From Dolomitihabitans soli (GTDB lineage: Bacteria; Actinomycetota; Actinomycetes; Streptosporangiales; Streptosporangiaceae), in contig NZ_JAKNTW010000005.1 in NCBI RefSeq assembly GCF_022213955.1, positions 496,001 through 560,000 of the forward strand: a DNA stretch of 64,000 bases. The letters are read 5' to 3'. Each line of letters begins with the position of its first letter. The first letter of the stretch is position 1. Below, in pieces: positions 12,079-63,034 of the stretch. A program made the position numbers and the translations under genes. Under the pieces are notes generated by a model. It saw nothing but the letters and a program-made list of their open reading frames with translations, made no database searches and had not been told where the DNA came from.

Positions 12079-12311
12079 CGTGGTCGAGGCTCTGGCCGGT
12101 GGTGTGGTCTGTGGTTGCGTGTGTGGCCGGGTCTGCGTTCGATCCGGGGATGTGGTCGAGGCTCTGGCCGGTGGTGTGGTCTGTGGTTGTGTCTGTGGCC
12201 GGGTCTGCGTTCGATCCCGGGATGTGGTCGAGGCCCCGACCGGCGGTGTGGTCTGTGGGTGTGTCTGTGGTTCGGTCCGCGCCCTCGCCTGTGGTTCGGT
12301 CCGCGCTCGGT
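12079..12311. repeat. 72-bp tandem repeats upstream of the yeiH-like gene
   Basis: About three copies of a 72-bp unit, each beginning GTGGTCGAGG on the plus strand, run through 12079-12237; a shorter doublet containing TGTGGTTCGGTCCGCGC follows to about 12311. On the minus strand the unit would encode a 24-residue Thr/Pro/Gln repeat. The first two copies differ at only a few bases. The repeat fills much of the 556-bp gap between the yeiH-like start and lysR, and its codon use argues against translation. Confidence 0.85.
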
Positions 12312-12451: not shown

Positions 12452-13381
12452 AGTGAGCTGCCGGATCTGGAGTCGCTGAGGCTACTGGTGGACGTGGGCG
12501 AGTTGGGCAGCCTCGGTCAGGCGGCGCGTGCCGCCGGGATCGCCCAGCCGTCGGCGAGCAAGCGGATCGCGCTGCTGGAGAGACGGCTCGGGCTGCCGCT
12601 GCTGGAGCGCACGCCCAGCGGGTCCAAGCTCACCACCCAGGGTGCGATGGTCGCGGGGTGGGCGACGCAGGTGCTGGCCGCGGCGGAGGAACTGGTGCGG
12701 GGCGCGCAGGCCGTACGGCGGGGGCGTGAGGGGCATCTGCGGGTGGCGGCGAGCATGACCGTGGCCGAATACCTGCTGCCGAGATGGCTTGGCGAGTTCC
12801 AGGCGCGCGAACCGCAGGTCCAGGTCGGGCTGGACGTGCTGAACTCCGCCGAGGTCGCCGCGCTGGTGCTGGGCGAGGAGGGGCAGCGGCCTGCGGTCGG
12901 CGGCGAGGACGCGGAGGTGGAGCTGGGCTTCGTGGAGGGGCCGGTGGTGCCCGCCGGGCTGGAGTCGGAGGTGGTGGCGACGGACCGGCTGGTCGTGGTG
13001 GTGGCCGGCGGGCATCCGTGGGCGCGCCGCCGTACGCCGTTGCGTCCGGCGGAGCTGGCGGCGACCGCGTTGGTGGTGCGGGAGCGTGGTTCGGGGACCA
13101 GGGACACGCTGGACCTGGCGATGCGCGGGCACGTGGTGGCCGCGCCGAGGCTGGAGCTGGGCTCGAACACGGCGGTCAAGGGCGCCACCCGGGAGGGGGC
13201 GGCGCCTGCGGTGCTCAGCGGGTACGCGGTGGAGACCGAGTTGGCGACCGGCCGGCTCGTGGAGGTCACCACGGCCGGGATCGACCTCGGCCGCCGCCTG
13301 CGCGCGGTCTGGCGCCGCGGCCGGAGACTGGCCGGGCCCGCCGCCACCCTCCTCGCGATCGCCAGGTCCGGCGCGAAGTGA
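12449..13381 (+). CDS. LysR-family transcriptional regulator
   Basis: The 310-residue protein has an N-terminal winged helix-turn-helix (LGSLGQAARAAGIAQPSASKRI, residues about 14-35) and a C-terminal periplasmic-binding-type effector domain containing LRVAASMTVAEYLLPRWL. It is divergent from the yeiH-like exporter gene, the classical arrangement of a LysR regulator and its target; YeiE-type regulators control yeiH in enterobacteria. The start ATG 12449 fits a leaderless transcript. Its last codons are the first unit of a 52-bp triplication. The likely effector is an anion or sulfur compound, by analogy only. Confidence 0.9.
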   Translation: MSELPDLESLRLLVDVGELGSLGQAARAAGIAQPSASKRIALLERRLGLPLLERTPSGSKLTTQGAMVAGWATQVLAAAEELVRGAQAVRRGREGHLRVAASMTVAEYLLPRWLGEFQAREPQVQVGLDVLNSAEVAALVLGEEGQRPAVGGEDAEVELGFVEGPVVPAGLESEVVATDRLVVVVAGGHPWARRRTPLRPAELAATALVVRERGSGTRDTLDLAMRGHVVAAPRLELGSNTAVKGATREGAAPAVLSGYAVETELATGRLVEVTTAGIDLGRRLRAVWRRGRRLAGPAATLLAIARSGAK

Positions 13382-13510
13382 TCGTTGGCGGACTCGAGTG
13401 CTCATAGCGATCGCCAGGTCTGCTGCGAAGTGATCGTTGGCGGGCCCAAGTGCTCATAACGATCGCCAGGTCCGGCGCGAAGTGATCGTCGGCGGACTCA
13501 AGCGCTCATA
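13355..13510. repeat. Three exact-length 52-bp tandem repeats across the lysR stop codon
   Basis: Units at 13355-13406, 13407-13458 and 13459-13510 are each 52 bp and differ by only a few bases. The first contains the last codons and TGA of the lysR gene, so copies 2 and 3 are duplicated gene ends (each could encode IARSxAK-stop in a shifted frame, since 52 is not a multiple of 3). Each contains the palindrome CGATCG. Confidence 0.95.
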
Positions 13511-13529
13511 ATTCAGATAGGGTCCGGAT

Positions 13530-15068
13530 TTGATGCGATACGACGTTGTCATCGTCGGGGCCGGCCACAACGGGCTGGTCGCCGCCGCCTACCTTGCCGG
13601 GGCGGGCCGCCGGGTGTTGGTCCTGGAGCGGCTCGGGCACGTCGGCGGGCTCGCGGTGTCGGCCAGGGCCTTTCCCGGCGTGGACGCGCGCCTGTCCCGC
13701 TACTCGTACCTGGTCAGCCTGCTGCCCTCCAAGATCACATTCGATTTGGGGCTGAAGCTGGAGCTGCGTGGCCGCCGCTTCGCCTCCTACACCCCGGTCG
13801 GCCGTACCGGACTGCTGGTCGACGGTGGCGACGAGGCCAGGACCGCCGCCTCGTTCGCGGCCGTGACCGGCGGCGGAGCGGAGTACGAGGCATGGCGCCG
13901 GTTCTACGCGCTGACCGCCCACGTCGCCCGGCGGGTCGCGCCGACGCTGCTGGAGCCGCTCGTCGGCGCTTGGGCGATGCGGGCGGCCGTGGGCGCGGAG
14001 GCGTGGCGCGATCTGTTCGAGCGGCCGGTCGGCGAGGTGGTGGACGAGCGGTTCGCCGACGACACGGTGCGCGGCGTGGTGCTCACCGACTCGCTGATCG
14101 GGACCTTCGCCGACCCGTCGGCGCCCGACCGCCTCGCCAACCGGTGCCTCCTCTACCACGTGATAGGTGACGGCACCGGAGACTGGAACGTGCCGGTCGG
14201 CGGCATGGGGGCGGTGACGGATGCGCTCGCCTCGGCCGCGCGGGCGGCGGGGGCCGAGATCCGCACCGGTACCGAGGTGCTGGCCATCGACCCCGCCGGC
14301 GAGGTGACGTTCCGCGACGACCGGGGCGAGCACACGGTGACCGGCGGGCACGTACTCGCCAACGTGCCGCCCGCCGTACTGTCCCGGCTGCTCGGCGAAG
14401 GCGAAGGCGAGGGCGGGGACCTGCCTGAGGGCGCCCAGCTCAAGATCAACATGGTGTTGTCCCGGCTGCCCCGGTTGAAGGACCCGGCGGTCGATCCCGC
14501 GCAGGCGTTCAGCGGGACGTTCCACATCAACGAGGGCCGCGACCAACTCGCCGCCGCCCATGCCGAAGCCGCCGGCGGGCGCGTCCCCTCGCTGCCGCCC
14601 GCCGAGGTCTACTGCCACTCGCTGACCGACCCGTCGATCCTGGGAGCCGACCTGCGGGCGGCGGGGGCGCAGACGATGACCCTGTTCGGGCTGCACATGC
14701 CCGCCAGGCTGTTCCGGGCCGACCCGGAGAAGGCCAGGAAGGAGGCGCTGGCGGCGACGCTGGCCTCCGTGGGCGGCGTGCTCGCGGAACCGCTGGAGGA
14801 GTGCCTGCTGCGCACCCCCGGCGGCGAACCCTGCCTGGAGGTCAAGACCCCGGTCGACCTGGAACGCGAGGCAGGGCTGCCCGGCGGGCACATCTTCCAC
14901 CGAGATTTGTCGTGGCCGTACGCCGAGGAGCCGGCCGACGAGGGACGGTGGGGCGTGGAGACCGGGCACCCGAAGGTGCTGCTGTGCGGCGCGGGCGCGC
15001 GGAGGGGCGGCGGCGTCAGCGGCATCCCCGGCCACAACGCGGCCATGGCGATCCTGCACGGCGGCTGA
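13530..15068 (+). CDS. Phytoene desaturase-like FAD-dependent oxidoreductase (PYROXD2-like)
   Basis: This 512-residue flavoprotein begins with a Rossmann dinucleotide-binding motif, VVIVGAGHNGLVAAAYLAG, ending in an acidic residue in LVLERLGHVGG. The C-terminus has GAGARRGGGVSGIPGHNAAM, the second FAD-contact motif of the phytoene-desaturase/PYROXD2 group. The middle is the substrate domain. No carotenoid synthase genes are nearby, so carotenoid desaturation is not supported; PYROXD2-like proteins have no settled substrate. TAGGGT at 13518-13523 lies 6 nt before TTG 13530 and 9 nt before ATG 13533, so a leaderless TTG start is plausible. A solitary gene, flanked by repeat DNA on both sides. 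Confidence 0.85.
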   Translation: MMRYDVVIVGAGHNGLVAAAYLAGAGRRVLVLERLGHVGGLAVSARAFPGVDARLSRYSYLVSLLPSKITFDLGLKLELRGRRFASYTPVGRTGLLVDGGDEARTAASFAAVTGGGAEYEAWRRFYALTAHVARRVAPTLLEPLVGAWAMRAAVGAEAWRDLFERPVGEVVDERFADDTVRGVVLTDSLIGTFADPSAPDRLANRCLLYHVIGDGTGDWNVPVGGMGAVTDALASAARAAGAEIRTGTEVLAIDPAGEVTFRDDRGEHTVTGGHVLANVPPAVLSRLLGEGEGEGGDLPEGAQLKINMVLSRLPRLKDPAVDPAQAFSGTFHINEGRDQLAAAHAEAAGGRVPSLPPAEVYCHSLTDPSILGADLRAAGAQTMTLFGLHMPARLFRADPEKARKEALAATLASVGGVLAEPLEECLLRTPGGEPCLEVKTPVDLEREAGLPGGHIFHRDLSWPYAEEPADEGRWGVETGHPKVLLCGAGARRGGGVSGIPGHNAAMAILHGG

Positions 15069-15089
15069 CGCGACGAGGCCGACGAGGCT

Positions 15090-15290
15090 CCCCGGGTCCC
15101 GTGGTCCGGTGGCGGAGGTCCGGTCACGCGTGGCATGCGGCGGAGACGGATGGCGTCCCCGCTCAACGAGGCACGCGACGAGGCTGGCCAGACTTCCCCG
15201 GGTCCCGTGGTCCGGTGGCGGAGGTCCGGTCACGCGTGGCATGCGGCGGAGACGGATGGCGTCCCCCGCTCAACGAGGCACGCGACGAGG
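15090..15290. repeat. Direct duplication of about 94 bp
   Basis: Copies at 15090-15183 and 15196-15290 are identical except for one extra C in the second; the period is 106 bp. Each runs from CCCCGGGTCCCG to GCACGCGACGAGG. They fill most of the 296-bp gap between the flavoprotein gene and the response regulator; no gene was seen there. Confidence 0.92.
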
Positions 15291-43190: not shown

Positions 43191-43949
43191 GTGAACGGTC
43201 TGCGAGTCCTGGCGGTGGACGATGAGCTGCCCGCCTTGGAAGACCTCGCCTATCTCCTGCGGGCCGATCCCCGGATCGGCGAGGTGACGATGGCCCGTGA
43301 CGGGGCCGCGGCGTTGCGGCTGCTCGACCGGGGGATCGCCGAGGGCCGGCCGGTGGACGCCGTCTTCCTCGACATCCGGATGCGCGGCCTGGACGGGGTG
43401 GTGCTCGGGCGGCTGCTGTCGCAGTTCGCCAATCCGCCGCGGATCGTCTTCGTCACGGCGTACGAGGACCACGCGGTGGACGCCTTCGAGATCAAGGCGG
43501 AGGACTACCTGCTCAAGCCGGTGCGCCCGGAGCGGCTCGCCGAGGCCATCAGGCGGGTGTGCGTCGCCGCCGAGACGATGGGGCCCGACCTGGCCGTCCG
43601 CGACCCGGAGACCATCCCGGTCGAGCTGGGCGGCGTGACCAGGTTCGTGGCCAGCACCGATGTGATGTACGTCGAGGCGCAGGGCGACTACGCCCGCCTG
43701 CACACCTCCGCCGGCAGCCACCTGGTCCGCATCTCGCTGGCCACGCTGGAGGAGCGCTGGGCCACGGCGGGCTTCGTCCGGGTGCACCGCAGCCACCTCG
43801 TCGCCGTCAAGCACATCGACGAACTGCACATCGACTCGGGCCGTTGCGTGGTCCGCATCGACGGCGCCGAGATCCCGGTCAGCCGCCGGCACACCCGGGA
43901 ACTCCGCGACCTCCTGGTCCGCAGAGCACGCAGAGGCCACGGCACGTGA
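43191..43949 (+). CDS. LytTR-family response regulator
   Basis: The 252-residue protein combines a receiver domain (acidic pair in VDDELPALEDL, phospho-acceptor Asp in FLDIRMRGLDG, Lys in LLKPV) with a C-terminal LytTR DNA-binding domain containing YVEAQGDYARLHT and FVRVHRSHLVAV. GTG 43191 has a strong Shine-Dalgarno (GGGGAGGG); ATG 43173 would add six residues. It is the partner of the LytS-type kinase and lies directly upstream of two transporter pairs, its probable targets. Its TGA is the first base triplet of a 54-bp tandem repeat. Confidence 0.93.
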   Translation: MNGLRVLAVDDELPALEDLAYLLRADPRIGEVTMARDGAAALRLLDRGIAEGRPVDAVFLDIRMRGLDGVVLGRLLSQFANPPRIVFVTAYEDHAVDAFEIKAEDYLLKPVRPERLAEAIRRVCVAAETMGPDLAVRDPETIPVELGGVTRFVASTDVMYVEAQGDYARLHTSAGSHLVRISLATLEERWATAGFVRVHRSHLVAVKHIDELHIDSGRCVVRIDGAEIPVSRRHTRELRDLLVRRARRGHGT

Positions 43950-44108
43950 CGCCCCGCCGGTCCGCGCGGAGCCGGGGCGGCGTGCCGACGGCCGGGCGGC
44001 TGACGCCCCGCCGGTCCGCGCGGAGCCGGGGTGGCGTGCCACCGGCCGGGCGGCTGACGCCCCGTCGGCATGCGCGGAACTGGGGTGGTGTGCCGACGGC
44101 CGGGCGGT
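43947..44108. repeat. Three 54-bp tandem repeats starting at the regulator stop codon
   Basis: Units begin TGACGCCCCG at 43947, 44001 and 44055; the period is exactly 54 bp. The first TGA is the stop of the LytTR gene. Copies 1 and 2 are nearly identical and copy 3 is diverged. No gene is credible in the 277-bp gap that the array occupies. Confidence 0.92.
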
Positions 44109-53709: not shown

Positions 53710-53843
53710 TGGCGCGGTGCCGGGCCGGGCTCGAAGGGTCACGAGTGCATCCGAGTCGTCACGGCGACCGGCCACGCGCGCCCGAGTGGCGTGCATCCGC
53801 GGACACCCGCCGCCTGCGGCGCGTGGCGCCGGCGTGGCATGCC

Positions 53844-53940
53844 GTACGGACACGACGTACGGACACGACGTACGGACGCGACGTACGGACGCGACGTACG
53901 GACGCGACGTACGGACGCGACGTACGGACGCGACGTACGG
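53844..53940. repeat. Seven 13-bp tandem repeats
   Basis: GTACGGACGCGAC is repeated seven times from 53844 to 53934 (the first two copies have ACAC instead of ACGC), followed by a partial GTACGG. It ends 6 bp from the stop of the aldo/keto reductase gene. Consecutive units create CGTACG palindromes every 13 bp. Confidence 0.97.
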
Positions 53941-53946
53941 CGCGGG

Positions 53947-54921
<975 letters not shown>

Positions 54922-55176
54922 ACGCAGCACTCTAAACCGCGCCCAAGGGGTGCCCGTGGAGGGGGCGGTGGTGCGGCTCTGGCAATACGGTGGCGCTTGC
55001 TTGAAGGAACAGCGGGATAATCTTTCCCGAAGATAGTGAAATTTGCTTTGATAGGGGAATGGATTGACCATGCCCTTCCTGCTTGGCATGTCGCAGCAAG
55101 GCAGGACAGGTGACAAGTCCGTTTGAAAATGGGCAAGCCGCCTACGTGGCATTTCGGTCGCACAAAATGGGGGGCG
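54922..55176. promoter_or_regulatory. Divergent gap between aldo/keto reductase and sensor kinase genes
   Basis: The half next to the kinase is A+T-richer than average and contains an inverted repeat CATGCC-N10-GGCATG (55069-55090) and TTGACC (55064-55069). These are candidate control elements for the kinase gene that begins the lanthipeptide locus. No gene was seen. Confidence 0.4.
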
Positions 55177-56361
55177 ATGGAGCGCACGCAAAGGGAGAAT
55201 GATCCTCCGCCGGGCTCGGTTTTCCAGGGGTCGTCTCCCAAGCTGTGGCTCGACGCCGCCGCGTCGGCCTCGACCGGTGTCGCGATCTCGGCGCTGACCT
55301 TTGCCGGCATCTCCGGATCAGGTCAGGGACACGTGTTCGGCGGGCTGGTCTGGTTACTGGCGTTACTCGCACTGCACGCCCGACTGCTTGTGAAGGCGCT
55401 CAAGAAGCAAACGGTGGAATGGTGGGCGATCGCCCTGGAGGCGCTGCTGGCGTTTCTGCCGTTACTGGTTCTCGGGCCGGGCTGGGCGCCCGCCTGCGGG
55501 CTGCCGGTCGGCACCTTGCTGCTGGCCGCCTACCGGAGACGCCTGCCGGCGCTCGCGCTGGCCGGGCTCACCAGCGGTCCCCTCCTGCTCGTCCTGTCGG
55601 CGGTGGCGGCGTCCGGTGACCCGCCGCCGGACTGGACCGCGAGCTGGGCCGTGGGCCGGTCCCTGGCCTGGGCGGTGGCGGGGCCGGCGCTCGGCCTGGC
55701 GGAGTGCGCCTGGGTCCTCCTCGCGGGGCGGCTCGCGACCGGGCGGACCGAGCTGGTCCGCAACGCGCTGTCCCAGGAGCGCCGCAGGTTCAGCCGTGAC
55801 CTGCACGACCTGGTCGGGCACCGGCTGACCGTGCTGGTCCTGAAGGCCGAGCTCATCCAGCGGTTGCTGGACTCCGGCGACCGCAAGCTGCACGACGAGG
55901 TGCAGGAGGTCCTGCAGTTGCTGCGGGGGATGACCGGTGACGTCCGCTCCGTGGCGCACGGGTCGCCGTGCTCCTCGCTGGCGGCGGAGCTGGACTCGGC
56001 GCGTGCGGTGCTGGAGTCGATCGAGGTGCGGTGCCAGGTCGAGGTGTCGTGCCGGACCCTCGCCGCCGAGGCGACGGAGGTGCTCGCCCACGTCCTGCGC
56101 GAGGGCGTGACCAACATCCTGCGGCACGCCAGGGCCAGGGAGTGCGTCATCCACCTGGTCGAACAGGACGGAGTCGTCGAGCTCTCGATGACGAACGACG
56201 GGGTGGTGGCCGCGCGCGAGGGGGCGCGCGACGGGCAGGGCCTGCGGAATCTGCGGGACCGCATGGCCGAACTCGGCGGCCACCTGACGGCCGGCGATCT
56301 CCCCGAAGGGCGATTCCGACTTATCGCACATTTCATGCACAAATCTAAGATTTCATCGTAA
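55177..56361 (+). CDS. Orphan sensor histidine kinase (HisKA_3/NarL-partner type) with TTA codons
   Basis: The 394-residue protein has five or six N-terminal membrane helices (residues about 25-180), then a HisKA_3 dimerisation domain with phospho-acceptor His210 in RRRFSRDLHDLVGHRL and a short HATPase domain (LREGVTNILRHARA, DGQGLRNLRDRM). Kinases of this type phosphorylate NarL/LuxR-type regulators, but none is encoded in the window. It contains three TTA leucine codons (residues 60, 63 and 96). These are rare in such G+C-rich genomes and in Streptomyces depend on the developmental tRNA bldA. ATG 55177 is the likely start; ATG 55129 upstream is possible. Its position just before lanKC suggests it controls the cluster. 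Confidence 0.85.
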   Translation: MERTQRENDPPPGSVFQGSSPKLWLDAAASASTGVAISALTFAGISGSGQGHVFGGLVWLLALLALHARLLVKALKKQTVEWWAIALEALLAFLPLLVLGPGWAPACGLPVGTLLLAAYRRRLPALALAGLTSGPLLLVLSAVAASGDPPPDWTASWAVGRSLAWAVAGPALGLAECAWVLLAGRLATGRTELVRNALSQERRRFSRDLHDLVGHRLTVLVLKAELIQRLLDSGDRKLHDEVQEVLQLLRGMTGDVRSVAHGSPCSSLAAELDSARAVLESIEVRCQVEVSCRTLAAEATEVLAHVLREGVTNILRHARARECVIHLVEQDGVVELSMTNDGVVAAREGARDGQGLRNLRDRMAELGGHLTAGDLPEGRFRLIAHFMHKSKISS

Positions 56362-56511: not shown

Positions 56512-59118
56512 ATGGACCAATACGAGCTGTACTGCCTGGCCGATCCTTTCTTCTATGACACGCTTGAGCACAGCGAGGTAGAGGGCGCCGATTTTTCCAT
56601 AGCCGGCGAGCCGCTCCCCGAAGGTTGGGCACATCACCCATCCGACACCTGGCTCTATTATGCGCCGGGCGGCGAGGCGCCCCTTCCCGCGCAGGGCTGG
56701 AAAATCCACGTGTCGGCCCGGATGGAGGATGCCGAACGGGCGCTGGCGATCGTGTGGGACTACTGCGTGACCCGTGGGATCGCGTTCAAGTTCCTGCGCG
56801 GCGCCCCCATCGTGATCATGCTGAACTCCAAGGCCGCCTCCCGGGCGTCGAGCGGCAAGCTGGTCACGATCTACCCGCGAGACGTCGACCAGCTCGAACT
56901 CATCCTGAAGGACCTCCACGAGCTGCTGCGCGGCATCACCGGCCCCTACATCCTCAGCGATCTTCGCTACGCGGAAGGCCCCCTCTACGTGAGGTACGGC
57001 GGTTTCGCCGAGCGCCACTGCGTGACCGAGGCCGGGGAACGCGTGCTGGCGGTCGAGGACGGCGCCGGGCGGCTGGTCCCCGACGTGCGCCACGCGATCT
57101 TCTCGATCCCGCCGTGGACGGCGCTGCCCGGGTTCCTCCAGCCCCATCTCGACAGCCGCAACACCGTGACGACGCACGACATGCCGTACACCGTGGAGAG
57201 CGTGCTGCAGTTCTCCAACGGCGGAGGGGTCTATCTCGCCAGGGACGGGCGCACCGGCGAGCAGGTGGTGCTGAAGGAGGGGAGACCGCACGCGGGGCTC
57301 GACGCGGCCGGCCGGGACGCGGTGACGCGCCTGGCGCACGAGCGGGACATCCTCGAACGCCTCGCCGGGCTGGACGGCGTGCCGGCCCTGCACGACTACT
57401 TCACCCTCGGCGAGCACCACTTCCTCGTCCAGGAGTTCATCGACGGCACCTCGCTGCAGAGCCGCCTGGTGCACCGGTTCCCGCTGACCAGGGCGACCTG
57501 CACACCGGAGGTGCTCGCGGAGTACACGCGGTGGGCGATGGACACGGTCGACGACGTGGAGCGGGTCGTGGCGTCCCTGCACGGGCGGGGAGTGGTCTTC
57601 GGCGACCTGCACCCCGACAACGTGCTCCTCATGGAGAGCGGCCGGGTGGTCATGATCGACTACGAGGTGGCCACCCTCGCGGACGAAGGCGGCCGCGCGG
57701 CGCTCGCGCATCCGGCGTTCAACGCCCCCCGGGACCGGCAAGGGGTCGACGTCGACACCTACTCGCTGGCCTGTCTGCGGCTCGGGTTGTTCGCCCCGCA
57801 GTGCACGATCATGCTGCCGCTGCACCGGGCGAAGGCACGGCACCTCGGCCGGCTCGTCACCGAGATCTTCCCGGTGCCGCCGCCGGCGATCGAGGCGGCG
57901 GTCGCCACGATCATGGGCGACGGCGACCATCCCGAGACGCCGGACCCGCCGATGCCCGGCACGGACTCCTGGCCGGACGTGCGCGACGCGATGTGCCGCG
58001 CCATCCGGAGCGCCGCGACGCCCGACCGCGAGGACCGGCTCTTCCCGGGCGACATCGCGCAGTTCGAGCCCGGCCACGGACTGAACTTCGCGCACGGCGC
58101 CGCCGGGGTCCTCTACGCGCTGACGTCGGTCGGCGCCGGACGTCTCCCCGAGTACGAGGAGTGGCTGTGCGCCCGCTCGGCGACGCCCGTGCCGGGCTCG
58201 GGGCTCGGCTTCTACGACGGGCTGCACGGCATCGCCCACGTCCTCGACCTGCTCGGTCGCCGGCAGGAGGCGCTCGACGTCGTCGAGATCTGCATGCGCG
58301 AGAAGGTGGAAGGGCTCCAGCCCGCGCTGTTCTCCGGCCTGTCCGGCATCGGCCTGAACCTCCTGCACCTGGGCGAGACCACCGGTGAGCACGAGCTGAC
58401 GCGCACCGCGCACCGCGTCGTGGACATCTGCGCCGACCGGCTCGGCGGTCCCGAGGACGTGCCGGAACTCAGCGGCGGCACCCGTCCGCGCGCCGGCCTC
58501 ATGTACGGCTCGGCGGGTCCCGCCCTGCTGTTCCTGCACGCCTACGAGCAGACGGGCGACGCCGCCCTGCTCGACCTCGCCGAGGTGGCGCTGCGTCAGG
58601 ACCTCCGCCGGTGCCGCCTGGCCGACGACGGCTCGCGCCAGGTGGACCAGGGCTGGCGGCTGCTGCCCTACCTCGACGAGGGTTCCGTCGGCATCGGCGT
58701 GGTCCTCGCCCGCTACCTGGCCCACCGCGAGGACGAGTCCTTCGCGGTCGCGCTGGCGGAGCTGCGGAAGGTGGCGCGGTCGCGTTACTTCGTGCAGTCG
58801 GGACTGTTCACCGGCCGGGCCGGCATCATCGCCGCGCTGGGCACGGGACTGCGCCCGCCCGGTCAGGGTCCCGACGACCTCATCGACGACCTCATCGACG
58901 ACCAGGTCCACGGCCTGCGGTGGCACGCGCTGCCGTACGGCGGGGGCCTGGCCTTCCCCGGAGACCAGATGCTCCGGCTCTCCATGGATTTCTCGACTGG
59001 AACGGCAGGTGTCCTGTTCGCGCTCGGCGTGGTTCTGTCCGAGCGGCCGGTGAGCCTGCCCTTCCTCGGGCCCGCGATCCCGCGGTCCCGTCACGACGAG
59101 CACAGGAAGGGGGTGTAA
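56512..59118 (+). CDS. Class III lanthipeptide synthetase (LanKC, RamC/AmfT-like)
   Basis: This 868-residue enzyme phosphorylates Ser/Thr of the precursor, eliminates phosphate and forms lanthionine or labionin rings. The N-terminal lyase domain has WKIHVSA with catalytic Lys64 and His66. The kinase domain has ATP-binding Lys255, catalytic Asp365 in FGDLHPDNV and metal-binding Asp383 in MIDYE. The C-terminal LanC-like cyclase (about 520-850) has GLMYGSAGPA and QSGLFTGRAG where zinc-dependent cyclases have CysGly and CysHis, so zinc ligands are absent, the class III hallmark. Full length for the family. It is followed after 5 bp by the first precursor gene, sharing the transcript. The start has GGAGGG upstream. 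Confidence 0.96.
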   Translation: MDQYELYCLADPFFYDTLEHSEVEGADFSIAGEPLPEGWAHHPSDTWLYYAPGGEAPLPAQGWKIHVSARMEDAERALAIVWDYCVTRGIAFKFLRGAPIVIMLNSKAASRASSGKLVTIYPRDVDQLELILKDLHELLRGITGPYILSDLRYAEGPLYVRYGGFAERHCVTEAGERVLAVEDGAGRLVPDVRHAIFSIPPWTALPGFLQPHLDSRNTVTTHDMPYTVESVLQFSNGGGVYLARDGRTGEQVVLKEGRPHAGLDAAGRDAVTRLAHERDILERLAGLDGVPALHDYFTLGEHHFLVQEFIDGTSLQSRLVHRFPLTRATCTPEVLAEYTRWAMDTVDDVERVVASLHGRGVVFGDLHPDNVLLMESGRVVMIDYEVATLADEGGRAALAHPAFNAPRDRQGVDVDTYSLACLRLGLFAPQCTIMLPLHRAKARHLGRLVTEIFPVPPPAIEAAVATIMGDGDHPETPDPPMPGTDSWPDVRDAMCRAIRSAATPDREDRLFPGDIAQFEPGHGLNFAHGAAGVLYALTSVGAGRLPEYEEWLCARSATPVPGSGLGFYDGLHGIAHVLDLLGRRQEALDVVEICMREKVEGLQPALFSGLSGIGLNLLHLGETTGEHELTRTAHRVVDICADRLGGPEDVPELSGGTRPRAGLMYGSAGPALLFLHAYEQTGDAALLDLAEVALRQDLRRCRLADDGSRQVDQGWRLLPYLDEGSVGIGVVLARYLAHREDESFAVALAELRKVARSRYFVQSGLFTGRAGIIAALGTGLRPPGQGPDDLIDDLIDDQVHGLRWHALPYGGGLAFPGDQMLRLSMDFSTGTAGVLFALGVVLSERPVSLPFLGPAIPRSRHDEHRKGV

Positions 59119-59123
59119 ACGAC

Positions 59124-59255
59124 ATGGTCCTTCTCGACCTCCAGGGTCTCGAGGCTCCTTCGAGCAGTGACGTCGCCAGCGGCGGCAGCACGCTCACGGT
59201 CCTCGGTTGCAACTCGCACAAGCCGAGCAACCTCAGTGTGCTGCTCTGCCACTAG
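59124..59255 (+). CDS. Class III lanthipeptide precursor, copy 1 (SapB-like)
   Basis: This 43-residue peptide has a leader MVLLDLQGLEAP with the conserved LxxLQ-type recognition motif (LLDLQ) of class III precursors, and a core carrying two Ser/Thr-x2-Ser/Thr-x3-Cys motifs: STLTVLGC (residues 22-29) and SNLSVLLC (residues 35-42). The spacing is the same as in SapB (RamS). The single leader proline (Pro12) is the expected cut site of the prolyl oligopeptidase encoded downstream. It starts 5 bp after the synthetase gene and is identical to copy 2. The mature product is probably a two-ring, amphiphilic peptide of 25-31 residues with morphogenetic or surfactant properties. Confidence 0.95.
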   Translation: MVLLDLQGLEAPSSSDVASGGSTLTVLGCNSHKPSNLSVLLCH

Positions 59256-59264
59256 TCACACTTT

Positions 59265-59292
59265 CCCCGGGCGTCCCACGGGCCGCCCGGGG
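59265..59292 (+). terminator. Hairpin after precursor copy 1 (imperfect)
   Basis: CCCCGGGCGTCC pairs with GGGCCGCCCGGGG with one mismatch compared with the perfect hairpin after copy 2. It probably acts as an attenuator that lets part of the transcripts continue and stabilises the precursor mRNA. Confidence 0.65.
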
Positions 59293-59312
59293 CCCACAAG
59301 GGGGTAAACGAC

Positions 59313-59444
59313 ATGGTCCTTCTCGACCTCCAGGGTCTCGAGGCTCCTTCGAGCAGTGACGTCGCCAGCGGCGGCAGCACGCTCACGGTCCTCGGTTGCA
59401 ACTCGCACAAGCCGAGCAACCTCAGTGTGCTGCTCTGCCACTAG
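59313..59444 (+). CDS. Class III lanthipeptide precursor, copy 2 (identical to copy 1)
   Basis: This 43-residue gene is base-for-base identical to the one at 59124, including its codon choices. GGGGGTAAACGAC precedes ATG 59313, as in copy 1 apart from a small deletion. Because the proteins are identical, the duplication would raise precursor dose rather than diversify the product. It lies 60 bp before the first ABC transporter gene, separated by a perfect hairpin. Confidence 0.95.
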   Translation: MVLLDLQGLEAPSSSDVASGGSTLTVLGCNSHKPSNLSVLLCH

Positions 59445-59453
59445 TAACACCTT

Positions 59454-59481
59454 CCCCGGGCGGCCCACGGGCCGCCCGGGG
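59454..59481 (+). terminator. Perfect hairpin between precursor copy 2 and ABC genes
   Basis: CCCCGGGCGGCC / GGCCGCCCGGGG with a CACG loop (12-bp stem). It sits 23 bp before GTG 59505 and probably terminates most transcripts, so that far more precursor than transporter is made. Confidence 0.75.
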
Positions 59482-59504
59482 CCCTGTCTTAGAAGGAGGG
59501 TCCC

Positions 59505-61172
59505 GTGCGCGCGGCAGACCGCCTGGTGATCGAGGCCGTACGGCGAGGCGGGCCCTGGCCGTCCGTGCTCGCGGTGGCGGCGGGGGCCGGCACCGCGGGC
59601 GAACTGGCCCTTCCCATCACGGCCGGCATGGCCATCGACGCGATGGTCACCGGCGCGCCGGACCGGACCGCCTGGCTGATCGCCTGCGCCGCGATCGTCG
59701 TCGGCGTCATGGTGTGCGAGACCGTCGCGGTCTGGGCGAGAGGCGTGAGCGGCGCGCAGGCCTCGGCCCGGATGCGCCGCCGGATCCTGCGCCACGTCCT
59801 CGGCGTCGGCCCCTCGATCAAGGGCCGGTTCGCCGAGGGAGACCTCGTCACCCGCGCGGGAATGAACGCCGAGGAGGTCGGCAGGGCCCCTGAGGCGCTG
59901 ATCAGCGGGCTGACCCTGCTGGTCCCGACCGTCGGCGGCCTGGTGGCCCTGACCCTCATCGACCCCGTCCTGACTCTGACCCTCGCCGTCGGCATCGCGG
60001 TCATCCTGCTGATCCTGCGGGCCTTCCTGCGGGCGAGCACCACGGTCGCGGGCGACTACCAGAACGTGCAGGGGGAGATCGCCGGACGCCTGCTCGACGC
60101 GCTGGAGGGCGCGCGCACGATCGCCGCGACGGGCACCGCGGAGCAGGAGGCGCGGCGGGTACTCCGCCCGCTGCCCCGCCTGCGCGCCCACGGCCTGGAG
60201 TTGTGGCGGGTCACCGCGACCGCCGGGGTACGGGCCGGGATCATGGTGCCGGTGCTGGAGGTGGCCGTGATCGCGGTGGGCGGCCTGCGTCTGGCCGCGG
60301 GCGAGCTCACCGTCGGGCAGCTGTACGCGGCGGCGCGCTACGCCGTGCTGGGGGCGGCGCTGAGCACGGCGCTCGGCTACGTCGGACGGCTGGCCCGGGC
60401 CCGCTCCGCCGCCGCACGGGTCGCCGATCTGCTCGCCGTACCCGCCACCGGCTACGGGACGCGGGTGCTCCCGCCGGGTTCGGGCCGGGTGGAGTTCGAG
60501 GAGGTGGCCGTGCCCGGCCTGGAGGTGCGCGGGCTGGTCCTCGCCGGCGGGTCGGCCACCGCGGTGGTCGGGCGGTCGGGAGCGGGCAAGTCGTTGCTCG
60601 CCGCCGTCGCCGGGCGGCTGGTGGACCCGGCGCGCGGCACCGTCCGGCTGGACGGGGTGCCGCTGCCCGAACTCGCCCAGGGGGAACTGCGGCGGGCGGT
60701 GGGGTTCGCCTTCGAACGGCCGGTCCTGGTGGGCGACACGGTCGGCGAGGCGATCGGGATGGGCGCGGCCGATCCCGGGAGCGTGCACGCCGCGGCGACG
60801 GCCGCCTGCGCCGACGGGTTCATCAGAAGACTTCCCGACGGGTACGACACCCCGCCGGACGACGCCCCCATGTCGGTCGGCGAACGCCAGCGGATCGGGC
60901 TGGCCCGCGCGTTCGCCCAGGCGGAACGGCTGCTCGTACTCGACGACGCCACCTCCAGCCTGGACACGGTGACCGAACGGCAGGTGGCCCGGACGCTCAC
61001 CGGAGCGTCCGACGGCCGTACCCGGCTGATCGTGGCGCACCGGCCCGCCACCGCGGCCCGCGCCGACCAGGTGGTCTGGCTGGACGCGGGCCGGGTACGC
61101 GCCCAGGGCCCGCACCGCGTGCTGTGGGAGGACCCCGACTACCGCGCGGTCTTCCAGGCGGCGGCACCATGA
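59505..61172 (+). CDS. ABC transporter, fused permease/ATPase (RamA-like)
   Basis: The 555-residue half-transporter has six membrane helices (residues about 20-300) and a C-terminal ATPase with Walker A GRSGAGKS (356-363), a degenerate signature MSVGERQ, and Walker B LLVLDDATSSLD. It forms a heterodimer with the next gene product to export the modified peptide. This matches the ramAB/amfBA layout of SapB-type clusters. GTG 59505 is preceded by GAAGGAGGG. The stop overlaps the next start (ATGA). Confidence 0.93.
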   Translation: MRAADRLVIEAVRRGGPWPSVLAVAAGAGTAGELALPITAGMAIDAMVTGAPDRTAWLIACAAIVVGVMVCETVAVWARGVSGAQASARMRRRILRHVLGVGPSIKGRFAEGDLVTRAGMNAEEVGRAPEALISGLTLLVPTVGGLVALTLIDPVLTLTLAVGIAVILLILRAFLRASTTVAGDYQNVQGEIAGRLLDALEGARTIAATGTAEQEARRVLRPLPRLRAHGLELWRVTATAGVRAGIMVPVLEVAVIAVGGLRLAAGELTVGQLYAAARYAVLGAALSTALGYVGRLARARSAAARVADLLAVPATGYGTRVLPPGSGRVEFEEVAVPGLEVRGLVLAGGSATAVVGRSGAGKSLLAAVAGRLVDPARGTVRLDGVPLPELAQGELRRAVGFAFERPVLVGDTVGEAIGMGAADPGSVHAAATAACADGFIRRLPDGYDTPPDDAPMSVGERQRIGLARAFAQAERLLVLDDATSSLDTVTERQVARTLTGASDGRTRLIVAHRPATAARADQVVWLDAGRVRAQGPHRVLWEDPDYRAVFQAAAP

Positions 61173-63034
61173 GCCGCGACCCGGGGCCGGGCGCACCCCA
61201 CCACGAACTCGACGAGGACGGCCCGCGGGCAGACCGGCCCGGGACCGAAGACGGCGACCCGCGGGTGAGTCAGCCTGGGATCGAAGCGGACGGCCCGCGC
61301 GCCCGCCGGCGGGGGACGGACGCGGGCGGTGACTGGCCGGTGATCGGGCCTGGCGCGCTGCTCTACGGGACCCTGCGGCGCAGGCCCGCGCGGCTGCTGC
61401 GGATCGCGGGCTGGTCGGTGGTGGAGGCGGCGCCGGCGTTCGTCATCGGGCTCGCCGTCGCACGCGCCATCGAGGACGGGTTCGCGGCGGGCCGCCCGGC
61501 GACCGGGCTGGCCTGGCTGGCGCTGCTGGGCGGCACCTGGCTGGTGGCCGCGGTCGGCGCCCGCCAGGTGATCCTCGCGGTCGCCGCCGTGGCCGAGCCC
61601 TTCCGCGACGAACTGCTCGGCCACGTCGTAGCGGGAGCCATGCGGCGGGCCACGGCCTCGTTCCGGTCCGCTGGGCCGGGCAGCGCGGCCGTGGCCCGTG
61701 CGAACCTTCAGGTCGAACTGGCCAGGGACTCGTTCGCCGCGGTCGTCACCGTGGTGCGGAGCTTCCTGTTCACCCTGGTGGGCGTCGTGCTCGGCATGCT
61801 GACCCTCGTTCCCGAAGCCCTGGTGCTCGCCCTGCCGCCGTTCGCGGTGGGGCTGGCGCTCTTCCTGCTGTCGCTGCCCGCCCTGGCCCGGAGGCAGCGG
61901 GAGTTCCTGCTGGCCGACGAGCGGACCGCGGAGGCGCTGAGCTCGATGGCCGGCGGCCTGCGCGACATCGCCGCCTGCGGCGCGGAGGACACCGTCGGGA
62001 ACGGGACGGAGCGGGCGGTGGCGGCGCAGGCCGCCGCGGCCAGACGGCTGGCGCGGGTCACCGCCGTGCGTACGGCGGCGCTCGCCGTGGGCGCGGGACT
62101 GCCCGTCCTGCTGGTCCTGGCCGGCACGCCGTGGCTGCTGAGCACAGGCGCGGGCGCGGGCACCGTCGTGGGCGTGCTCGCCTACGTCACGCAGTCGCTC
62201 GGGCCGGCGCTCGGCGGCCTCGTGGAGGGTCTCGGGGTCAGCGGCGTCGCACTGGTGACCTCTCTCGGCCGGATACTCAGGTCGCTCCCGCCGGCCGTAC
62301 CCGTGATCGCGCGGGCGGTGCCGCAGGGCGACGACCTGAGCCTGCGCGCCGTCACCTTCGCGTACGGCCCGCACGCCGAACCTGTCGTGGACCGGCTCGA
62401 CCTCGTCGTCCCCGCCGGGGACCATCTCGCGATCGTGGGCCCGAGCGGCGCCGGCAAGTCCACGCTGGCGGCGCTCATCACGGGGGTGCTCCCGCCGGAC
62501 GCCGGAGAGATCCGGCTCGGCGGCGTCCTGGCGGGCGAGGTGGTCCCGGCCGCGCGGGTGCTGATCCCGCAGGAGGCGTACGTCTTCCGGGGCACGCTGG
62601 CGGAGAACTTCGGATTCCTGGCCGACGTCCCGCAGGCGGACATGGCGGCGGCCGTGCGGGCGCTGGGCGCCGGCGAGCTGGTCACCCGTTGCGGCGGCTA
62701 CCAGGCCGAGATCGACCCGGCGGCGCTCTCGGCCGGTCAGCGGCAGCTGGTCGCCCTGGTCCGCGCCTACCTCGCGCCCGCCCGCATGGTCGTGCTCGAC
62801 GAGGCTACCTGCCATCTCGATCCCGCCGCCGAGGAACGCGTGGAGCGGGCGTTCGCGTCGCGCGGCGGCACCCTGATCGTGGTCGCCCACCGCCTCAGCT
62901 CGGCGGTGCGCGCCCGGCACGTCCTGCTCGTGGACGGCACGCGGGTGCTGAAGGGCACCCACGACGAGCTCGTCCGCGCCGTCCCCCTGTACGCCGACCT
63001 CGTCGGCCACTGGCAACCGGAGCCCGTTTCATGA
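61169..63034 (+). CDS. ABC transporter, fused permease/ATPase (RamB-like)
   Basis: The 621-residue partner has an unusual 55-residue N-terminal low-complexity extension rich in Asp, Gly, Pro and Arg, then six membrane helices and an ATPase domain with Walker A GPSGAGKS (424-431), signature LSAGQRQ and Walker B MVVLDEATCHLD. In heterodimeric exporters one subunit often has the canonical signature and the other a degenerate one, as seen here. It overlaps both neighbours by 4 bp. The hydrophobic cargo is most likely the lanthipeptide. Confidence 0.93.
   Translation: MSRDPGPGAPHHELDEDGPRADRPGTEDGDPRVSQPGIEADGPRARRRGTDAGGDWPVIGPGALLYGTLRRRPARLLRIAGWSVVEAAPAFVIGLAVARAIEDGFAAGRPATGLAWLALLGGTWLVAAVGARQVILAVAAVAEPFRDELLGHVVAGAMRRATASFRSAGPGSAAVARANLQVELARDSFAAVVTVVRSFLFTLVGVVLGMLTLVPEALVLALPPFAVGLALFLLSLPALARRQREFLLADERTAEALSSMAGGLRDIAACGAEDTVGNGTERAVAAQAAAARRLARVTAVRTAALAVGAGLPVLLVLAGTPWLLSTGAGAGTVVGVLAYVTQSLGPALGGLVEGLGVSGVALVTSLGRILRSLPPAVPVIARAVPQGDDLSLRAVTFAYGPHAEPVVDRLDLVVPAGDHLAIVGPSGAGKSTLAALITGVLPPDAGEIRLGGVLAGEVVPAARVLIPQEAYVFRGTLAENFGFLADVPQADMAAAVRALGAGELVTRCGGYQAEIDPAALSAGQRQLVALVRAYLAPARMVVLDEATCHLDPAAEERVERAFASRGGTLIVVAHRLSSAVRARHVLLVDGTRVLKGTHDELVRAVPLYADLVGHWQPEPVS

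Follow-up and report, generated by a model that had tools for sequence, protein, structure and literature searches.

A probably recent tandem duplication of a RamS/AmfS-type precursor cassette in a class III lanthipeptide cluster

Introduction

Peptides of the SapB type act as surface-active morphogens in aerial growth (PMC13380574). Among class III lanthipeptide precursors, 57% are the sole precursor in their cluster, and one class III cluster of Bacillus cereus encodes 13 identical precursor peptides (PMC7268733). Identical, repeated class III precursors are therefore already known from these clusters. Tandem precursors are reportedly also the subject of the paper on cerecidin. A limited search found no literature centred on the homogenisation of lanthipeptide precursors, which is weak evidence of absence. 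The supply of precursor relative to enzyme may limit SapB-like surface-active morphogens, and the locus analyzed here carries two identical precursor genes. It lies in a 64-kb window, by which we mean the whole stretch of 64,000 nucleotides analyzed.

The lanthipeptide cluster

The locus belongs to the SapB/AmfS type of class III lanthipeptide clusters and lies in a Streptosporangiaceae-type actinobacterium. Its genes are listed below, preceded by a histidine kinase gene that may or may not belong to it.

55123..56361, + strand, histidine kinase gene immediately preceding lanKC in the same orientation (PF07730)
56512..59118, + strand, lanKC, class III lanthionine synthetase of 868 aa (NF038151, 1071 bits; RamC_N, Pkinase, LANC_like)
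59124..59255, + strand, lanA copy 1, RamS/AmfS-type precursor of 43 aa (PF19402 and NF033212, above cut-off)
59313..59444, + strand, lanA copy 2, same sequence as copy 1 (PF19402, NF033212)
59505..61172, + strand, lanT1, ABC transporter with membrane and ATPase domains (PF00664, PF00005)
61169..63034, + strand, lanT2, ABC transporter whose start is not fixed (PF00005)

The domains of LanKC comprise lyase, kinase and cyclase parts, and the precursor scored 47.5 bits against PF19402 (cut-off 24.3) and 49.1 bits against NF033212 (cut-off 25), which places it in the RamS or SapB/AmfS family. Two S/T-xx-S/T-xxx-C motifs, STLTVLGC and SNLSVLLC, can be read in the precursor core STLTVLGCNSHKPSNLSVLLCH, and both ABC transporter genes adjoin the precursors. 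No response-regulator partner (RamR-like) of the cluster was found among the neighbours scanned, which were part of the ORFs. By analogy with SapB-type peptides, we infer a morphogen function for the predicted peptide.

Anatomy of the duplication

The two precursor genes lie in a tandem repeat that contains the following elements.

59111..59484, + strand, tandem duplication, period 189 bp, two copies (repeat limits and copy alignment)
59109..59117, + strand, Shine-Dalgarno sequence of copy 1, AAGGGGGTG, which overlaps the lanKC end (duplex with the anti-Shine-Dalgarno sequence, -18.8 kcal/mol)
59265..59292, + strand, hairpin downstream of copy 1, where a derived T leaves one stem mismatch (-23.8 kcal/mol)
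59300..59306, + strand, Shine-Dalgarno sequence of copy 2, AAGGGGG region, weaker than that of copy 1 and shorter by 2 bp (-11.7 kcal/mol)
59454..59481, + strand, hairpin after copy 2 with a perfect stem (-31.0 kcal/mol)

Tandem Repeats Finder recovered this repeat with 2.0 copies at 97% match and gave it the top score in the window. A preliminary description of the locus had stated that the precursor genes are identical base for base, that the duplication takes in the synthetase stop codon and that the flanking hairpins already differ, and direct comparison bore out all three statements. No base differs between the two 132-bp ORFs, and the exact match extends over 142 bp (59115-59256 versus 59304-59445), the longest exact repeat within the window. 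The lanKC stop codon TAA (59116-59118) is inside the duplicated block and has a non-coding counterpart at 59305-59307. Outside the exact match, the copies are set apart by a 2-bp indel immediately upstream and by three substitutions 3' of the precursor stop codon, one of which falls in the stem of the 28-nt post-gene hairpin. The tandem unit of 189 bp also stood, with the small correction that the ribosome-binding site (RBS) and the post-gene hairpin belong to it: the copied unit is the whole cassette of RBS, precursor gene and hairpin.

No second site matching the array was found in the genome, where the only other match was that of the hairpin to its own opposite strand. The assembly is a draft of 10.8 Mb in 81 contigs, in which additional identical copies could have been collapsed. 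Other tandem duplications in the window were located at 15068-15290, 12080-12270, 13356-13511 and 43947-44107, with units of 106, 72, 52 and 54 bp and 86–94% match. An array of the 13-bp unit CGTACGGACGCGA (53843-53944; 7.9 copies, 97% match) sits at the 3' end of an aldo/keto reductase gene (53947-55191, minus strand).

Ribosome-binding sites and hairpins

In the place of the copy 1 Shine-Dalgarno sequence, relatives carry AAGGAGGTG. The 2-bp deletion in the RBS of copy 2 is derived, because relatives read ...GGTGTAA. When the first gene was compared with the mean of later copies, it had the strongest RBS in 46 of 46 other arrays, and the window fits this family rule (-18.8 versus -11.7 kcal/mol). 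A weak shared RBS for which the duplication would compensate was also considered and rejected, since the predicted duplex energy of copy 1 is near those of relatives (-16.5 to -20.5 kcal/mol).

The mismatched T in the stem of copy 1 is derived as well, since Spongiactinospora hairpins share the copy 2 stem CGGGCGGCCC...GGGCCGCCCG. The hairpin structure is conserved in relatives, with both-side paired changes in three of six predicted pairs. Across the 46 other arrays, the 60 nt 3' of the last gene had a median folding energy of -37 kcal/mol versus -7.5 kcal/mol for internal spacers (n = 61; P = 7e-18); folding and duplex energies are predictions, and spacers under 60 nt were folded at their full length, which biases them towards weaker values. 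The one weak value after a last gene, -6.2 kcal/mol, came from genome G308, in which the contig ends shortly after the second precursor. The internal spacer of the window reached -28.2 kcal/mol, a value attained by none of the 61 others; the strongest of these was in G212 (-22.8 kcal/mol), and G213 (-19.9 kcal/mol) was likewise intermediate. The window thus departs from the rule, seen in the 46 arrays compared, of a strong hairpin after the last precursor only. What is unusual in the window is the unit copied, namely RBS, gene and hairpin together.

Some precursor matches lay no more than about 100 bases from the ends of draft contigs (G305, C55:48-176 and C36:85-213; G308, C185:87-215). Assemblies seem to break at arrays, and copy numbers in drafts may be too low.

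Relatives and age of the duplication

Among named genomes, a scan recovered 17 LanKC relatives, one a Nocardioides record and the others from Nonomuraea, Spongiactinospora and Thermoactinospora, and all carry a single precursor. A LanKC tree was built from 92 loci that were partly picked for being tandem, so that frequencies are not to be read from it. In this tree, the window belonged to a clade of 20 loci from Nonomuraea, Spongiactinospora, Thermoactinospora and their kin (SH-aLRT 100), and it was the sole tandem locus there: one precursor was present in 19 of the 19 other members. Such a comparison of copy number had been proposed in the preliminary description as a check on a recent duplication, and its outcome supports that reading; because the 19 other loci have a single precursor, the duplication appears to be both recent and lineage-specific. 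The whole tree needs seven changes between the single and the tandem state, six of them forced by well-supported branches, which indicates that arrays were gained or lost repeatedly. The suggestion that copy number could change easily by recombination is plausible and fits the two to four copies seen in relatives. The branch of the window is long (0.31 changes per site) and its genome is the sole one of its genus among those sampled, so the age of the duplication is not closely bounded.

The non-coding divergence between the copies (3/46) predicts 2.0 synonymous differences in the gene, and 0 were observed (P about 0.13). Zero coding differences would be expected often enough that neither gene conversion nor selection is needed for the identity. 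Of the earlier alternative between recent origin on the one hand and conversion or selection on the other, the first part therefore stood and the second proved dispensable. A young duplication suffices to account for the identity of the copies; conversion between them is possible but unneeded.

Apparent core homogenisation in other tandem arrays

With two head-to-tail precursors after lanKC, the window counts as a tandem array. Identical genes were found in two of 62 neighbouring pairs, those of the window and of genome G199. In genus g59, 58% of the pairs within a genome had identical core peptides, versus 3% of those between genomes; none of 2000 shuffles was as high. Synonymous differences between cores were lower in within-genome comparisons (0.147) than in between-genome ones (0.264). 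The leaders of g59, which is among the arrays L035-L082, track array position, and the cores track genome. In 18 genome pairs, the ratio of genome-shared to position-shared sites was 34:30 for the cores and 7:30 for the leaders (Fisher P 0.0008); leaving out overlapping pairs gave 19:26 and 5:28, respectively (P 0.013). With linked sites and hand-picked pairs, these P values serve as guides. Since 12 of the 34 genome-shared core sites are synonymous, conversion is favoured over selection alone. Core homogenisation was not clear in genus g30 (28% versus 16%; 413 of 2000 shuffles as high), and the pattern is accordingly not universal. These comparisons suggest that conversion in the family is patchy, with tracts that in g59 are limited to the core region.

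A common course with repeated origins can be proposed tentatively, although we consider it rather doubtful: after cassette duplication, the state of the window, the internal hairpin and the RBSs of later copies would decay, and conversion would then keep cores alike within the genome while leaders diverge by position.

Proposed mechanism and alternative explanations

The reading we hold to be likely is one recent in-place duplication of the whole translational cassette, with a rise in precursor supply of less than twofold and with an identity of the copies that reflects their youth. A single event would have copied the RBS at the lanKC end, the precursor gene and the hairpin in place. Judging from the family, LanKC would dehydrate the identical precursor made from both genes and cyclise it at its pair of S/T-xx-S/T-xxx-C motifs, and export would fall to the two ABC proteins. 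Precursor supply would rise moderately, because copy 2 lies behind the hairpin of copy 1 and has a weaker RBS. The earlier view that the gain is one of dosage was drawn from the identity of the products, and a simple doubling is doubtful given the terminator-like hairpin and the two RBS energies; the gain in dosage is probably less than double. The hairpin most likely limits read-through into the transporter genes or protects the mRNA end before them, a role by which precursors would be made in excess. A hairpin between the precursors would make the duplication partly self-defeating until it weakens, and that of copy 1 has one weakening change so far.

An older duplication whose copies were kept identical by gene conversion would give the same picture, as the identical genes of G199, in a clade with an old array, illustrate, and it gains some weight from the homogenised cores of other arrays, both in g59 (58% versus 3%) and in the site-sharing ratios. 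We nevertheless regard this concerted evolution as unlikely here, since none of the 19 other loci of the clade is tandem, the internal hairpin has stayed almost whole, which is true of no internal spacer in the other arrays, and zero coding differences are often expected without conversion. That one real copy was doubled by the assembly is very improbable: the 81-contig draft and a repeat about as long as a short read would allow it, but the flanks differ by three substitutions and an indel, which argues that both copies are real, and these changes make sense when polarised by relatives. Tandem copies also occur in members of the family whose genomes consist of a single contig (G074, G078, G312, G313).

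A neutral duplication, in which copy 2 has no effect on peptide yield and is on its way to being lost, deserves more credit, though we would not expect it to be the correct account. Copy 2 sits behind a hairpin with a weak RBS, a single copy is the rule in the clade and several more tandem duplications occur within the window; against this, the copy 2 gene is intact, and elsewhere arrays persist across whole clades with open frames and similar cores, so that extra copies can be kept. The internal hairpin and the family-wide pattern are worth following, in particular why a strong hairpin ends up after the last gene only. The locus also bears on whether core regions are homogenised by conversion.

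Comparison with known systems

The window is a young example of the doubled precursor genes that are common in this family. Soon after duplication, it stands between single-copy relatives and old arrays, a starting point for array formation. It shares with the ramCSAB and amf clusters a RamS-family precursor, a RamC-type LanKC, two ABC transporters and the order lanKC-lanA-lanT-lanT, but its precursor gene is present twice in identical form, a hairpin follows each copy, and the core sequence of the predicted product differs. The Bacillus cereus cluster similarly encodes identical precursors repeatedly within one class III cluster, although in a different phylum. Orthologous clusters in Nonomuraea, Spongiactinospora and Thermoactinospora (L084-L095, L097-L100) have the same leader type (...SDVASGGSTLT), an RBS over the lanKC stop codon and a hairpin before the transporter gene, but a single precursor gene instead of two. 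Tandem arrays of two to four copies in other genera of the same family (L035-L082) likewise place their precursors head to tail right behind lanKC, and the cores are often identical; unlike the window, they carry a strong hairpin after the last gene only, their leaders have usually diverged and the arrays are common to whole clades.
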